Assembly: GCF_007988805.1 (NCBI RefSeq)
Contig: NZ_BJUV01000003.1
Location: 62,001 to 126,000 of the forward strand
Direction: 5' to 3'
Origin: Frigoribacterium faeni
Lineage (GTDB): Bacteria > Actinomycetota > Actinomycetes > Actinomycetales > Microbacteriaceae
Length of the DNA: 64,000 nucleotides
Positions 11,660 through 45,390 of this stretch are shown here, one piece after another. Both the position numbers and the translations under genes were made by a program. Position 1 is the first letter of the stretch. Each line of letters starts with the position of its first letter. Under the pieces are notes generated by a model. That model ran no database searches. It saw only the letters and a program-made list of their open reading frames with translations, and was not told where the DNA came from.

Positions 11660-11837
11660 CGGTGGCCTCCTGGACGCGCCCAAGGTACCGCTCGGCGGGC
11701 TCCGCCGCCAGGGGGCGACGGTGCTTCCGCCCGGTGCGCCTCCGGTGCGCCTCCCGTGCGCCTCCCGTGCGCGGCGGGTGTCCGGCGGGTGGTCGGCGCG
11801 TGTCCGGCGCGAGCCGCGTTACGGTCTCATTTCAAAC

Positions 11838-11867
11838 CTTGCCAGGTGGCAAGTTCCGCCCTACATT
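11838..11867 (+). promoter_or_regulatory. putA promoter with overlapping palindromic operator
   Basis: The -35 box TTGCCA (11839-11844) and -10 box TACATT (11862-11867) are 17 bases apart. The ATG of putA is 6 bases after the -10, so transcription should begin at or next to the start codon. A perfect palindrome CTTGCC-AGGT-GGCAAG (11838-11853) covers the -35 box and is a likely repressor site; the regulator is unknown. Confidence 0.7.
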
Positions 11868-11873
11868 CGTCCC

Positions 11874-14800
11874 ATGACCACCATCGACGAGACGGCGGGG
11901 CCGTCCACCGCAGCACAGTTCCCCGTCGGCGCGACCGGCCCGGCCCCCGCGCCGACCGTCGACGCCGACCTCCCCGCCGGCCTCGGCGACGACGCCGTCG
12001 CTCTCGCCCGCCGCTGGGCGCACGAGGCGTCGAGCGCCCCGAGCACGGGCTCGGCCCACCTGCTCGCCCAGGTGCTGAAGGACGAGTCGGGTCTCGCCTT
12101 CACCATCGGGTTCGTCGACCGGGTCGTCCGCCCGGAGGACCTCGGCGTCGCCGCGCGCAACCTGTCGACCCTGGCGAAGCAGGCCCCGTCCTTCCTGCCG
12201 TGGCACATGCGCGGCGCCGTCCGCCTCGGCGGCGTGATGGCGCCCGTGCTGCCCGGCGTCGTGGTGCCGATCGCCCGCCGCGTGCTGCGCGGCATGGTCG
12301 GCCACCTGATCGCCGACGCCCGCCCGGCCCGGCTCGGGGCCGCGATCGCGAAGATCAGGAAGGAGGGCACCCGCCTCAACCTCAACCTGCTCGGCGAGGC
12401 CGTGCTCGGCGACGCCGAGGCCGAGCACCGCCTGGCGGGCACGCGGGCCCTGCTCGCCCGCGACGACGTCGACTACGTCTCGATCAAGGTCTCGTCCATC
12501 GTCAGCCAGCTCTCGATGTGGGCCTTCGACGAGACCGTCGAGCGCGTCGTCGAGAAGCTGACCCCGCTCTACGAGCTGGCCGCCCGCTCGCCGAAGCCGA
12601 AGTTCATCAACCTCGACATGGAGGAGTACCGCGACCTCGACCTGACGATCGCGGTCTTCACGCGCCTCCTCGACCAGCCGCAGCTGCGCGGTCTCGAGGC
12701 CGGCATCGTGCTCCAGACCTACCTGCCCGACGCCCTCGGCGCTCTGCAGGGCCTGACCGAGTGGGCCACGGCCCGCGTCGATGCCGGTGGGGCCTCGATC
12801 AAGGTGCGCGTCGTCAAGGGCGCCAACCTCGCCATGGAGACCGTCGACGCCACGGTGCACGAGTGGCCGCTCGCCACCTACGGCACCAAGCAGGACAGCG
12901 ACACGAACTACAAGCGCGTGCTCGCCTGGGCCTTCACCCCCGAGCGCGCCCGAGCCGTGAAGATCGGCGTCGCCGGCCACAACCTGTTCGACATCGCCTT
13001 CGCCCACCTGCTCGCCGAGGCTCGCGGGGTGAGCGACCGCGTCGAGTTCGAGATGCTGCTCGGCATGGCCGAGGGGCAGGCCGAACTGGTCAAGGCCGAC
13101 GTCGGCGGGCTGCTGCTCTACACGCCCGTCGTGCACCCGCGCGAGTTCGACGTCGCCATCAGCTACCTCATCCGCCGCCTCGAGGAGAACGCCTCGAGCG
13201 AGAACTTCATGTCGGCCGTCTTCGAGCTCGCCTCGAACGAGGCCATGTTCGAGCGCGAGAAGGGGCGGTTCCTCGCCTCGCTGGCCGAGATCGACGGAGC
13301 CGTGCCGGCACCGCACCGCGTGCAGAGCCGCCTCGACCCCGCCCAGGCCCTGCAGCCGCGCGCGGCCGGCAGCGGGTTCGACAACGAGCCCGACACCGAC
13401 CCGGCCCTCGCCGCCAACCGCGCCTGGGGCCGCGGGATCGCCGCCCGCTCGGCCGACTCCCGCCTCGGCGTCGACCTGATCGAGGCCGCCCGCGTCACCG
13501 ACACCGGGGCGCTCGACGCGATCGTCGCCGACGCCGTCGAGGCGTCCGCCGCCTGGGCGGCCCGAGGAGGCGCGGGTCGCGCAGCCGTCCTGCGCGCCGC
13601 CGCCGCCACGCTCTCGGCCCGTCGAGCCGACCTGATGGAGGTCGCCGCCAGCGAGACGGGCAAGACCGTCGCCGAGGGCGACGTCGAGGTCAGCGAGGCC
13701 ATCGACTTCGCCACCTGGTACGCCCACCTCGCCGAGGAGCTCGACGCCGTCGACGGCGCCGACTTCGTGCCCGCGCGACTGACGCTGATCACCCCGCCGT
13801 GGAACTTCCCCCTCGCCATCCCGGCCGGCTCCACCCTCGCGGCGCTCGCCGCGGGCAGCAGCGTCGTCATCAAGCCGGCCGGTCAGGCCAAGCGCAGCGG
13901 CGCCGTCATGGTGCAGGCCCTCTGGGACGCCGGCGTGCCGCCCGAGGTGCTGAAGCTGGTCGACGTCGACGAGGGCGACCTCGGGCGTCACCTGGTCTCG
14001 CACCCGTCGGTCGACCGCGTGATCCTCACCGGCGCCTTCGAGACCGCCGCGCTGTTCACGAGCTGGCGCACCGATCTGCCCCTGCTCGCCGAGACCAGCG
14101 GCAAGAACGCGATCATCGTCACCCCGAGCGCCGACCTCGACCTGGCCGCCTCCGACGTGATCAAGTCGGCCTTCGGCCACGCCGGGCAGAAGTGCTCGGC
14201 GGCGAGCCTCGTGATCCTCGTGGGCTCGGTCGCGACCTCCGAGCGGTTCCGCCGCCAGCTGGTCGACGCCGCCTCCACGATGCGCGTCGGGCTGCCGTCC
14301 GACCCGACGACGCAGATGGGTCCGATCATCGAGCCCGCACACGGCAAGCTCGAACGAGCGCTCACCACGCTCGGCGCGGGCGAGTCGTGGCTGGTCGAGC
14401 CCCGGCGGCTCGACGACTCGGGCAGGCTCTGGTCGCCCGGTGTCCGCGCCGGCGTCGCCGCCGGCAGCGAGTTCCACCTGACCGAGTACTTCGGCCCCGT
14501 GCTCGGCATCATGACCGCTTCGACGCTCGACGAGGCCATCGAGCTGCAGAACGCGACCGACTACGGGCTCACCGCGGGGCTGCACACCCTCGACCCCGCG
14601 GAGCTCTCCACCTGGCTCGACCGCGTCGAGGCGGGCAACCTCTACGTCAATCGCGGCATCACCGGGGCGATCGTGCGCCGCCAGCCCTTCGGCGGCTGGA
14701 AGAAGTCGTCGGTCGGCGCGGGAGCCAAGGCCGGCGGACCGAACTACCTCGTGCACCTCGGGTCATGGCGGCCCACCGCCCTCTCCGAGGCTCAGGAGGC

Positions 14801-15422
14801 GCGCCCCGGTCGCGCCGCCCTGGCCGCCCTCGAGGCCGCGACCCCGCTGCTCGGGGCGTCGGGCGCCACGGCCCACGACGAGCTGATGGCCGCCGCCGCG
14901 TCGGACGAGCACTTCTGGGCGACCGAGTTCGGCGTCGCCCGCGACGTGAGCGACCTCGGGCTCGAACGCGACCTGCTGCGCTACCGGCCGCTGCCCGTGA
15001 CCGTCCGCGCGGCCGACGGGGCCGCCCCGGCCGACGTGGTGCGGGTGCTGCTGGCCGGCCTCCGGTCGGGCGCGCCGCTGACGGTGTCGACGTCGATCGA
15101 GCTGCCCGCCGGTCTCGTCTCGGCGCTGGGGCTCCGCGCGTCGGACGTGCGGAACGAGAGCGACGCCGCCTGGCACGACCGGGTGCGGTCGGGCGGGTTG
15201 CGGACCGAGCGCGTGCGGTTGGTGACCGACGGGGGCGACGTGACGGGCGCCTCCTCGGCCCTGGCGGACGCCCTCGGCGGCGACCCGGCCGTGGCCGTGT
15301 TCGCGGCGCCGGTCACGCCGACGGGGCGGCTCGAGCTGCTGCCGTTCCTCCGCGAGCAGGCCGTGGCGATCACGGCGCACCGGTTCGGCAACCCCGACCC
15401 GTGGAGCGCGCAGGTCATCTAG
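11874..15422 (+). CDS. putA: Bifunctional proline dehydrogenase / L-glutamate gamma-semialdehyde dehydrogenase
   Basis: 1182-residue PutA that oxidises proline to glutamate in two steps. The N-terminal half (to about 480) is the FAD-dependent proline dehydrogenase barrel (DVDYVSIKVSS near 200; VRVVKGANLAME near 310). The second half (about 520-1060) is the NAD-dependent aldehyde dehydrogenase, with TPPWNFPLAIP near 641, ETSGKNAIIV near 743 and catalytic Cys774 in AGQKCSAAS. A C-terminal extension of about 120 residues has no motif I recognise. The ATG at 11874 fits the leaderless promoter. The word GAGGAGGCGCG occurs inside the gene at 13564. Confidence 0.95.
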   Translation: MTTIDETAGPSTAAQFPVGATGPAPAPTVDADLPAGLGDDAVALARRWAHEASSAPSTGSAHLLAQVLKDESGLAFTIGFVDRVVRPEDLGVAARNLSTLAKQAPSFLPWHMRGAVRLGGVMAPVLPGVVVPIARRVLRGMVGHLIADARPARLGAAIAKIRKEGTRLNLNLLGEAVLGDAEAEHRLAGTRALLARDDVDYVSIKVSSIVSQLSMWAFDETVERVVEKLTPLYELAARSPKPKFINLDMEEYRDLDLTIAVFTRLLDQPQLRGLEAGIVLQTYLPDALGALQGLTEWATARVDAGGASIKVRVVKGANLAMETVDATVHEWPLATYGTKQDSDTNYKRVLAWAFTPERARAVKIGVAGHNLFDIAFAHLLAEARGVSDRVEFEMLLGMAEGQAELVKADVGGLLLYTPVVHPREFDVAISYLIRRLEENASSENFMSAVFELASNEAMFEREKGRFLASLAEIDGAVPAPHRVQSRLDPAQALQPRAAGSGFDNEPDTDPALAANRAWGRGIAARSADSRLGVDLIEAARVTDTGALDAIVADAVEASAAWAARGGAGRAAVLRAAAATLSARRADLMEVAASETGKTVAEGDVEVSEAIDFATWYAHLAEELDAVDGADFVPARLTLITPPWNFPLAIPAGSTLAALAAGSSVVIKPAGQAKRSGAVMVQALWDAGVPPEVLKLVDVDEGDLGRHLVSHPSVDRVILTGAFETAALFTSWRTDLPLLAETSGKNAIIVTPSADLDLAASDVIKSAFGHAGQKCSAASLVILVGSVATSERFRRQLVDAASTMRVGLPSDPTTQMGPIIEPAHGKLERALTTLGAGESWLVEPRRLDDSGRLWSPGVRAGVAAGSEFHLTEYFGPVLGIMTASTLDEAIELQNATDYGLTAGLHTLDPAELSTWLDRVEAGNLYVNRGITGAIVRRQPFGGWKKSSVGAGAKAGGPNYLVHLGSWRPTALSEAQEARPGRAALAALEAATPLLGASGATAHDELMAAAASDEHFWATEFGVARDVSDLGLERDLLRYRPLPVTVRAADGAAPADVVRVLLAGLRSGAPLTVSTSIELPAGLVSALGLRASDVRNESDAAWHDRVRSGGLRTERVRLVTDGGDVTGASSALADALGGDPAVAVFAAPVTPTGRLELLPFLREQAVAITAHRFGNPDPWSAQVI

Positions 15423-15480
15423 CCGGGCGGGCCCCGGCTCTGCTCTGCTCTGCTCTGCTCTGCCCTGCCCTGCCCTGCTC
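15423..15480. repeat. Pentanucleotide tract (TCTGC/CCTGC)n
   Basis: About ten consecutive units of TCTGC or CCTGC directly after the putA stop codon, at the edge of the hairpin array. The same five-base word in reverse complement (GCAGA) borders the repeat block near 32.68 kb. Confidence 0.85.
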
Positions 15481-15481
15481 T

Positions 15482-15975
15482 GCTCTGCACCGCGTCTCGT
15501 GCACCGCACCGCACCTAGTCCGGGTGCGCTGTGCGGAACGTGGTGCGGTGTGCGGCCTAGCGTCTGCACTGCGTTTCGTGCGCTGCACCGCACCGCGACT
15601 AGTCCTGGTGCGTTGTACGGAACGTGGTGCGGTGTGCGGCCTAGCGTCTGCACCGCGTTTCGTGCGCTGCACCGCACCTAGTCCGGGTGTGCTGCACGGA
15701 ACGCGGTGCGGTGTGCGGCCTAGCGTCCGCACCGCGGATCGTGCACCGCACCGCACCGCGCCTAGTCCTGGTGCGTTGCACGGAACGCGGTGCGGTCCGC
15801 GGCCTAGCGTCTGCACCGCGTTTCGTGCACCGCACCGCGGCTAGTTCGGGTGCGTTGTACGGGACGTGGTGCGGTGGGCGGTCGGGCGTGTGCACCGCGT
15901 TTCGGGCGCTGCACCGCGGCTAGTCCGGGTGCGGTGTACGGAACGCGGTGCGGTGCGGTGCGGTGCGGCGGCCGG
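15482..15975. repeat. Array of six 79-84 bp hairpin units (GCACCG/CTAG family)
   Basis: Six imperfect units begin near 15482, 15564, 15648, 15727, 15811 and 15891 at the word CTGCACCGCGTTTCGTGC. Each unit carries the inverse of this word (GGAACGCGGTGCGG) about 45 bases later and a central GCACC-TAGTCC-GGGTGC, so each can fold as a long hairpin with CTAG in the loop. Most also hold GGCCTAGCGT at the junction. The array ends in (GTGCG)n. It lies between the convergent 3' ends of putA and oleD and has no credible coding sequence. The array at 47.17-47.61 kb shares its words. Confidence 0.9.
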
Positions 15976-15989
15976 CCGCGGCGGACGGC

Positions 15990-16973
15990 TCAGACGGCGG
16001 GCTGCCCCGCGGCGTACCAGTCGGCGAGCCGCCGCAGGCCCTCGTCGACGCTGACGGCCGGCGTCCACCGCAGATCGTGCTGGGTCCGCCGCTGGTCGAA
16101 CCAGTGCGCGGTCGACAGCTGCTCGGCCAGGAACCGGGTCATCGGCGGCTCGTCCGTGCCCGGTCGGACGGCCCAGACCCTCTCGACGAGCGACCCCGCC
16201 GCCCGTGCGACACCCGCGGGCACGCGCAGGCGCGGCGCACGCACGCCGGCCGCGCCGCAGATCCCGGCCATCAGGTCGGCGACCGTGCGGGGCTCCCCGT
16301 TGGTGATCACGTAGGACCCGCCGCTGACGGCGTCGACGCGCTCGAGGGCGGCGGCGATGCCCGAGGCGGCGTTGTCGACGTAGGTCGAGTCGATCAGGGC
16401 GGCTCCGTGGTCGAGCAGCGGCAGCCGGCCCGAGCGGGCCCGGTCGACGATGCGCTCGACGAGCTGCGTGTCGCCGGGTCCCCACACCAGGTGCGGGCGG
16501 ACGGCCACGACGCGCAGGTCGTCGTCGGCCGCGGCCAGGGCGAGGCGTTCGGCGACGGCCTTGGTCCGGGCGTAGTCGCCTCGGGCCTCGGCGGGCGAGG
16601 CGGGCAGGGCGTCGTCGCCGACGATCGACGAGCCGGCGTGCGCCACCGACGGCGACGACACGAACACGAGACGGGGCACCGAGGAGGCGCGCATCGCCTC
16701 GATCAGCGACCGCGTGCCCCCGACGTTGACCGCCTCGAAGTCGGCCGGCGCCCCGGTCAGCGAGACCTTGGCGGCCAGGTGGACCACCGCCTCATGCCCG
16801 GCGACGGCCGCGGCGATCGAGCCCGCGTCCGTCATCGAGCCGAGGACGTCACGCACCCCGGCGACGCCCGAGGGGCGGCGTTGGAACGTCGAGACCTCGT
16901 GCCCCGTCGCGGCGATCGTCCGGGCGACGGCGCCGCCGAGGAGGCCGCTCGCGCCGGTGACCAGCACCTTCAC
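15990..16973 (-). CDS. oleD: OleD: NADPH-dependent 2-alkyl-3-ketoacid reductase
   Basis: 327-residue extended SDR of the 3-beta-HSD type. The cofactor motif TGASGLLG is at about 6-13 and the catalytic Y-x-x-x-K (YARTK) near 133-137. In head-to-head olefin synthesis, OleD reduces the beta-keto acid made by OleA to the 2-alkyl-3-hydroxy acid. The GTG at 16973 overlaps the oleBC stop by 4 bases (GTGA). Last gene of the oleA-oleBC-oleD operon; the hairpin array follows its 3' end. The assignment rests on neighbourhood as well as family. Confidence 0.88.
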   Translation of the reverse strand: MKVLVTGASGLLGGAVARTIAATGHEVSTFQRRPSGVAGVRDVLGSMTDAGSIAAAVAGHEAVVHLAAKVSLTGAPADFEAVNVGGTRSLIEAMRASSVPRLVFVSSPSVAHAGSSIVGDDALPASPAEARGDYARTKAVAERLALAAADDDLRVVAVRPHLVWGPGDTQLVERIVDRARSGRLPLLDHGAALIDSTYVDNAASGIAAALERVDAVSGGSYVITNGEPRTVADLMAGICGAAGVRAPRLRVPAGVARAAGSLVERVWAVRPGTDEPPMTRFLAEQLSTAHWFDQRRTQHDLRWTPAVSVDEGLRRLADWYAAGQPAV

Positions 16974-45150: not shown

Positions 45151-45222
45151 GCCTCTGTAGCTCAATGGAAGAGCAGTTCCGTCCTAAGGAAAGGGTTGGG
45201 GGTTCGAGTCCCTCCAGGGGCA
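45151..45222 (+). tRNA. tRNA-Arg (anticodon CCT)
   Basis: Acceptor GCCTCTG pairs with CAGGGGC, D-arm AGCTC..GAGC, anticodon loop GTCCTAA (anticodon CCT, codon AGG), T-arm GGGGG-TTCGAGT-CCCTC. CCA is not encoded. TAGACT box at 45135-45140. The 3' end is repeated downstream in inverted form. Confidence 0.9.
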
Positions 45223-45390
45223 CCCCAACGCCGCTGCGCGCCGATGTGCCCCTGGAGGCACTCGAACCCCTGAGGCCCCGCGCTTCGCGCGCCCGTTCAG
45301 GGGCACTTCCAACGCCGCTGCGCGCCGATGTGCCCCTGGGGGGACTCGAACCCCCGCGGCCCCGCGCTTCGCGCGCCCGTCCAGGGGCAC
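45215..45390 (-). repeat. Tandem 83/84-bp units containing tRNA-like (acceptor plus T-arm) elements
   Basis: Two units (45215-45297 and 45298-45381), each beginning CAGGGGCAC, the tRNA-Arg 3' end. On the minus strand each holds a 61-base element (45246-45306 and 45330-45390): GTGCCCCTG pairs with CAGGGGCAC as an acceptor-like stem, a GC hairpin replaces the D and anticodon arms, and a canonical T-arm follows (copy 2: GGGGG-TTCGAGT-CCCCC). They read as truncated, antisense tRNA-like copies. Confidence 0.8.

Follow-up and report, generated by a model that had tools for sequence, protein, structure and literature searches.

The window, a stretch of 64,000 nucleotides of DNA, carries a tandem array of six hairpin units in the gap between two convergent genes: putA, which ends at position 15422 on the forward strand, and an oleD-like reductase, which ends at 15990 on the reverse strand. 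An earlier note, made from the sequence alone, had described this array as six CTAG-centred hairpins of 79 to 84 bp, and it is confirmed here as a real feature by TRF, by a covariance model (R1) and by folding. The features of the locus, and a second array of the same family further along the window, are as follows (window coordinates; strand given for the genes).

11721–15422, forward strand: putA (proline dehydrogenase / aldehyde dehydrogenase), longest open reading frame, taken from the ORF start
15437–15488: (GCTCT)n simple-repeat tract leading into the array, 10.4 copies (TRF)
15481–15552: hairpin unit 1, CTAG centre (R1 and fold)
15560–15636: hairpin unit 2, 5 bp longer, CTAG centre (R1 and fold)
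15644–15715: hairpin unit 3, CTAG centre (R1, with this unit in the model seed, and fold)
15723–15799: hairpin unit 4, 5 bp longer, CTAG centre (R1 and fold)
15807–15878: hairpin unit 5, CTAG centre (R1 and fold)
15886–15957: hairpin unit 6, CTAG centre (R1 and fold)
15944–15969: (GCGGT)n tail, 3' end of the array (sequence)
15990–16973, reverse strand: oleD-like NAD-dependent epimerase/reductase, convergent neighbour, inferred start codon
47171–47610: second array of the family, downstream of an SDR gene, with four CTAG centres, 19-bp-phased half-units and a (GCGGT)n tail (TRF and core matches)

Both the convergence of the flanking genes and the identity of putA hold as originally proposed, as do the simple-repeat tracts at the two ends of the array. 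The name oleD denotes a best match only, because the score of the reductase against NF042422 (308.8) lies below the curated 580-bit cut-off.

TRF reports the array as a tandem repeat at 15484–15957, with a period of 79/163, 5.8 copies and a score of 595. Each of the six units is a hairpin with a 25-bp stem and CTAG in its middle. The first cores of the units lie at 15487, 15566, 15650, 15729, 15813 and 15892, and the unit-to-unit distance is 79 and 84 bp in alternation: units 2 and 4 have five additional bases, since their two left-arm cores are 24 bp apart rather than 19 bp. R1, built from nine hairpins of four genomes with array unit 3 among the nine, matches all six units at 2.1e-14 to 1.7e-7 (G000:C3:77481-77957, which is window 15481–15957; G000 is the window's own genome). 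Folding of the forward strand gives −42 to −50 kcal/mol for the six units, with z scores of −2.2 to −4.7 against dinucleotide shuffles. Shuffles that fold as well number 6 of 200 for unit 1, 3 of 200 for unit 2 and 0 of 200 for each of units 3–6, and the whole 558-nt array stretch has a fold z score of −11.4.

CTAG had been called scarce in general and yet present in every unit, and this is what we find. The window holds 32 copies versus 54.4 expected from shuffles, and ten of the 32 lie within the array, six of them in the middle of a hairpin, one per unit, and the other four in linkers (units 1–4). Across 439 kb of the window's own genome, the density of CTAG is 7.21 per kb inside arrays versus 0.24 per kb outside. 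A protein-coding explanation of the array is rejected, as a Pfam scan of the two open reading frames that lie on or partly on it gave no match; an Rfam search of the window returned two tRNAs and nothing else. A phage origin is likewise rejected, with 0 exact matches in viral contigs.

Spread of the family and its 19-bp lattice

A single element of the family is about 60 bp long and comprises two arms, GCACCGCGTTTCG-6 bp-GCACCGCG, that face each other at a centre often bearing CTAG. The unit is not confined to the array: with up to one mismatch, the core GCACCGCGTTTCG has 190 matches in the window's own genome, compared with 3 for a reversed-pattern control. A DNA uptake sequence, which requires a short core in very high copy number, is a further reading that was considered. 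It is also present in relatives, with R1 matches in all 16 Frigoribacterium genomes searched. Counted on both strands, these number 4 to 92 per genome in the 15 relatives, lowest in G302 (4) and G307 (10), and at least 150 in G000; as a palindrome is usually counted on both strands, the number of places is about half of this, roughly 2 to 46 in the relatives and at least 75 in the window's own genome. An exact-pattern scan of named genomes, in which loci were chosen by their CTAG pattern, gave at least 30 stretches, and all those listed are from Frigoribacterium. Among 150 Microbacteriaceae genomes, searched with stricter filters at which weak matches are lost, R1 finds 15–33 matches in each of three Frigoribacterium genomes and only two or three weaker matches (E up to 1e-6) in each of 5 of the 147 others. 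The family had been put forward as undescribed and seemingly is, since a search for palindromic, inverted or tandem repeats of Frigoribacterium and Microbacteriaceae gave nothing on point in a literature of published papers that were largely open-access.

The element does not always carry CTAG. The motif is present in 5 of 10 CTAG-type elements that were collected by eye and not by their CTAG pattern (L154, L164, L165, L176, L200, L201, L245, two in L252, and L253), and the others mostly carry CTCG or CGAG.

The arrangement of the elements in the window's own genome is highly regular. With up to two mismatches, the 13-bp core occurs 319 times in 439 kb, compared with 29 times in a mononucleotide shuffle. 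Neighbouring cores on the same strand are spaced by 19 bp (96 cases), 38 bp (13) or 57 bp (2), and opposed neighbours by 28 bp (37), 47 bp (32), 66 bp (2) or 85 bp (1), with opposed spacings off this series at 52 bp (twice) and 20 bp (once); the cores therefore form one 19-bp lattice converging on a central 22-bp palindrome. (A tally of 177 "centres" is set aside here, as it takes in off-centre pairs.) Close neighbours are in phase in 111 of 132 cases. An arm has from one to about six cores, with extra cores added in exact 19-bp steps, and entire hairpins are themselves tandemly repeated. The repetition is far from exact: only 5 of 96 adjacent 19-mers are identical, and the 318 19-mers fall into 225 kinds.

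Because selecting units by their core inflates its apparent conservation, conservation was judged on unselected neighbouring slots. Slots lying 19 bp inward from a core have 1.15 bits per core position versus 0.54 in the spacer. Of 165 such slots, 91 match the core with at most three mismatches, versus 0 of 165 at shifts of 15, 17, 21 or 23 bp. The slot 19 bp outward lies within three mismatches in 49 of 167 cases, with 0.43 bits in its core part and 0.62 in its spacer part; outward slots as a whole are unconserved because an arm usually has no more than one or two cores. These inward slots, and a phase that is held across many half-units with no paired partner, are what would be expected if the core were read as a binding array by a putative protein that stacks or dimerizes every 19 bp, such as a nucleoid, partition or roadblock factor. 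We consider this rather unlikely. A spacing of 19 bp does not equal an integral number of B-DNA turns, the outward slots as a whole are unconserved, and spacer identity is higher between adjacent units (0.508) than between different contigs (random, 0.392), so that simple local duplication accounts for part of the lattice.

Arrays are so far seen only in G000, because 1.44 Mb from 12 other genomes contains no lattice neighbours and a single same-strand core pair, 78 bp apart, in G167; in the stretches read, the elements of the relatives stand singly. Tandem copies could in principle be created by short-read assembly across palindromes, and the genome is in 83 contigs, several of which start inside the repeat (C35, C38, C10 and C14), with 8 of the 35 arrays at an edge of the sequence read. 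We regard an assembly artefact as highly improbable, however, as the units differ from each other, contigs cross arrays of 465–775 bp into called genes on both sides, and the single hairpin recurs in 15 further assemblies, of which two consist of one contig. That the arrays arose through loss of the palindrome nuclease SbcCD is rejected: SbcD scores above cut-off in 16 of 16 genomes, G000 included. The SbcC-type matches are under the curated cut-off in 16 of 16 genomes, a cut-off passed by only 1 of 14 control genomes, and in the window's own genome they adjoin SbcD.

Position at gene ends and changes in the two arms

When 1.2 Mb from 12 genomes was searched de novo for strict hairpins, 132 were found, five of them in coding sequence, compared with none in mononucleotide shuffles of two segments; 61 of the 132 are long (at least 56 bp) and non-coding. 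With genes called by a simple codon-usage caller, 60 long hairpins of all families could be placed: 37 in convergent, 19 in co-directional and 4 in divergent gaps, so that 56 of 60 lie in the first two classes. Convergent gaps make up 28,012 of 151,001 gap bases (19%), and relative to gap bases the convergent excess has p 2e-13 and the divergent deficit p 2e-4, values in which orthologous copies are counted separately and are not independent. Of all placed intergenic hairpins, 5 of 126 are in divergent gaps. For the arrays of the window's own genome, the eight at an edge were dropped and the remaining 27 comprise 10 in convergent, 14 in co-directional and 3 in divergent gaps, a convergent enrichment that is not significant (10 of 27, p 0.10).

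The palindrome at a given gene end is not fixed. By eye, the type of palindrome varies between lineages at 16 loci behind putA: G000 has the array described here, G304 and G306 have a TCACGACATGCC type, G305 has a degenerate GCACCGCG type, G218, G110, G260, G167 and G298 have other types, G300, G301, G299 and G303 have a GC-rich hairpin, and G307, G302 and G035 have no obvious palindrome. The convergent partner of putA differs in G300, G301, G299 and G305. Another gap contains the CTAG type in G305, G303 and G218, a degenerate CTAG type in G304, a ATGAACCCCG type in G000, G301 and G306, a GAACCACG type in G110, G260 and G167, and no palindrome in G302 and G035.

The two arms also change together. 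An initial alignment of nine sequences gave no clear signal (7 double cells versus 4.2, reached by 38 of 500 shuffles). A larger set comprises 29 CTAG-type elements of 65 non-redundant R1 matches; the 36 left out are of other types or lengths, lack a CTAG centre, come from G304 or, in one case, are half-degenerate. In this set, 32 cells are changed on both sides of a pair versus 12.6 in shuffles, a value reached by 0 of 500 with clade kinship uncorrected. Two of the five measures used are weak, namely the pairs changed on both sides (6 versus 5.0, reached by 145 of 500 shuffles) and the further pair types (24 versus 21.0, reached by 24 of 500). Among orthologues, where 22 ungapped element pairs were compared and 11 gapped ones of 33 were dropped, there are four complementary double changes, three of them independent, versus about 0.3 expected. 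One of these distinguishes Leaf8 from a close relative within a block that is 99.6% identical and has local flanks of 96.8%. The same comparison contains 31 single-sided changes.

Across loci, the two clades differ at three pairs: 13-60 is C-G in 18 of 18 elements of one clade versus G-C in 6 of 11 of the other, pair 21-52 is G-C in 17 of 18 versus A-T in 7 of 11, and pair 25-48 is T-A in 2 of 18 versus 8 of 11. These dialects speak for the putative stacking protein considered above, whose own changes they would track.

The same data bear on the possibility that the array is a functionless GC-rich minisatellite, grown by slippage and unequal exchange and conserved merely through its youth. The restriction of arrays to G000, the tandem higher-order repeats, the simple-repeat tracts at both ends and the local similarity of units all fit such an origin. 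We nevertheless judge it quite unlikely: hairpins of the family occur in 16 of 16 genomes searched, core and phase persist through 225 kinds of 19-mer, base changes are paired, and the elements are placed at gene ends.

Comparison with known elements and the preferred reading

The earlier note had likened the array to REP or BIME elements, and the position of the family is indeed REP-like. As PMC3733652 describes them, REP, BIME and REPIN elements are high-copy intergenic palindromes, mostly in convergent or co-directional gaps near 3' ends, with several families per genome, some of them clustered, and in each of these respects they resemble the Frigoribacterium family. The same source gives REP elements end tags of GTAG or CGTC, the GTAG ones being associated with RAYTs. 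Here the likeness ends. The Frigoribacterium element is about 60 bp long with a 25-bp stem, compared with 20–40 bp for REP, often has a central CTAG, and contains a 19-bp direct repeat inside each arm. The GTAG/CGTC tag is absent from the consensus of 29 aligned CTAG-type elements, which were picked for their central CTAG and not for their ends; their flanks are CGCACC and GGTGnC. The predicted RAYT gene was also sought, and Y1_Tnp (PF01797) is found in 0 of 16 Frigoribacterium genomes, compared with 5 of 14 control genomes by the same search. Membership of a RAYT-driven REP family is therefore rejected on both counts.

Mobility of another kind, as a selfish, non-autonomous MITE- or REPIN-like element with a putative transposase and no host role, agrees with a family that is dispersed, intergenic and genus-specific, varies in R1 copy number (4 to 92 in relatives, at least 150 in G000) and is present or absent at the same gap between species. 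MITEs and bacterial minisatellites are short, palindromic or tandem, and dispersed, as is the Frigoribacterium element, and where a MITE has terminal inverted repeats this entire element is an inverted repeat. Unlike them, it combines palindromic units, a conserved core and diverged spacers. Against mobility, Y1_Tnp is missing from all 16 genomes, and no autonomous copy is seen in 1.44 Mb outside G000, where well-matched arms are paired as hairpins; the 39 arm matches with no mate within 60 bp have two mismatches in 38 cases and one in the other. Among the indels and breakpoints inspected in 200 kb of Leaf8 and its close relative (G300 and G301), a set that lacks one break of about 2 kb, none is a hairpin insertion with a target duplication. 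The sole presence/absence case, a palindrome found in Leaf8 and absent from the relative, lies between 24-bp direct repeats of a different motif, from the AGGAGGCGCGG...CCGCGCCTCCT family, which remain as one copy in the relative; this points to recombination rather than transposition. The proposal of a mobile element gains no support from these comparisons, and we hold it to be rather doubtful.

The note had also set the array apart from a simple terminator, a distinction that placement at gene ends does not decide, as a bidirectional terminator would equally give it. By folding and placement, a stable GC-rich hairpin lies behind the stop codon, as is canonical for terminators, and a consensus scan finds no U-tract or terminator-like site in window 15300–16100. 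PMC8355165 reports that hairpin clusters without poly-U trails act as terminators and that poly-U is not required; the Frigoribacterium hairpins resemble these clusters, and intrinsic terminators, in being predicted stable RNA hairpins that lie clustered just behind stop codons. They differ in forming a dispersed repeated family with a 25-bp stem and an unpaired half-unit lattice, and in the turnover of sequence type at a fixed site. A third likeness is to quasipalindromes made by template switching, which in PMC8794818 is shown to create and maintain hairpins in RNA genes: both have double changes that match between the arms, and perfect stems that arise suddenly. Those cases concern RNA genes, whereas the Frigoribacterium element is a multi-copy intergenic family (PMC8794818).

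Considered together, these data favour a reading to which we give a probability of roughly 0.55: the elements would be RNA hairpins that serve 3' ends in both directions and belong to a REP-like family without RAYT, whose palindromicity is kept by template switching and/or selection, and the array a tandem amplification, so far only in the window's strain, of this genus-wide intergenic palindromic repeat. The palindrome, lying just behind stop codons and often in convergent gaps, would be transcribed from either side; its RNA would fold into the 25-bp hairpin and, for both neighbouring genes, end transcription or block 3'-exonucleases. The hairpins thus probably end or protect messages, a function that, like mobility and any lattice-reading protein, is inferred. 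Complementarity of the arms would be maintained by hairpin-templated (template-switch) correction and/or by selection, which would explain the paired base changes, the clade dialects and the swapping of palindrome types at the same gap, and arrays would expand through unequal recombination between copies. Several observations count against this reading: there is no U-tract, some hairpins and arrays lie in divergent gaps, own-genome arrays lack a significant convergent enrichment, two of the five covariation measures are weak, and single-sided changes in orthologues outnumber double ones. Moreover, an RNA hairpin has no need of a core that stays conserved on a fixed lattice while its spacers diverge.

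With this family, the intergenic palindromes of bacteria gain an actinobacterial branch that lacks RAYT. It also offers a system in which the birth of long hairpins, their two-arm correction, their swapping at fixed gene ends and their amplification can be followed species by species. On the practical side, such arrays and contig ends fall together in this assembly of short contigs.

Long palindromes of other sequence

The long hairpins fall into 16 sequence families, which are not fully independent because some may be distantly related (R1 also matches GAACC- and CCAGG-type elements); clustering by shared 9-mers joined 56 of the 61 in one chain and was discarded. Their arms resemble themselves at shifts of 19 bp (0.479) and 20 bp (0.418), versus about 0.30 in shuffled arms. 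The best internal shift is 19 in 8 of the 16 families (null 9.9%), two of which are weak (identity 0.36 and 0.41), one of these two being the tRNA-end palindrome. The largest family has its best shift at 20, and 10 of its 11 members are GAGGGCGGGTC palindromes of 68–74 bp with a 20-bp internal repeat (L168–L187; G110, G218 and G167). The shorter, terminator-like family AGGAGGCGCGG...CCGCGCCTCCT forms strict hairpins in 9 of 12 Frigoribacterium genomes (for example L154–L202).

Outside the genus, 20 stretches of 20 kb from 20 other Microbacteriaceae genera contain 13 strict hairpins, compared with the 132 in 1.2 Mb of Frigoribacterium; six are long and none is best at a shift of 19. Five further long hairpins from other genera, at loci picked by core matches, also have a best shift other than 19. 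Of the weak R1 matches in other genera, which are selected by the model itself, three of five are best at 19. At L243, in another Microbacteriaceae genus, two long palindromes ending GTCGAATCGATTCGAT...ATCGAATCGATTCGAC lie within 20 kb.

A 19-bp phase that is common to several sequence families would also suit the putative stacking protein. It further allows a broader reading, in which palindrome families of differing sequence and one plan, with two motifs 19 or 20 bp apart per arm, are swapped at gene ends, and a common sequence-reading factor or copying mechanism other than RAYT imposes the lattice. Clade dialects would then be co-evolving specificities, and the arrays a runaway into satellite-like repeats in the window's strain. 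We hold this reading tentatively, as possible and less probable than the bidirectional 3'-end hairpins preferred above; if a factor does read the 19-bp lattice, it would represent a new kind of repeat-binding or repeat-copying system.

Palindromes and duplications are also seen behind other genes. By eye, other gene 3' ends in the window's own genome look tandemly duplicated, with copies of about 110 bp at L030 and partial tRNA copies at L011, perhaps reflecting a general tendency to local duplication behind genes. Within window 45151–45390, tRNA-Arg(CCT) has behind it its own 3' end in inverted copy, with a 28-bp arm (45198–45270), and an 84-bp tandem repeat. This palindrome may have been freshly made from the gene end, and similar-looking inverted tRNA ends are present in G301, G302, G303 and G035.
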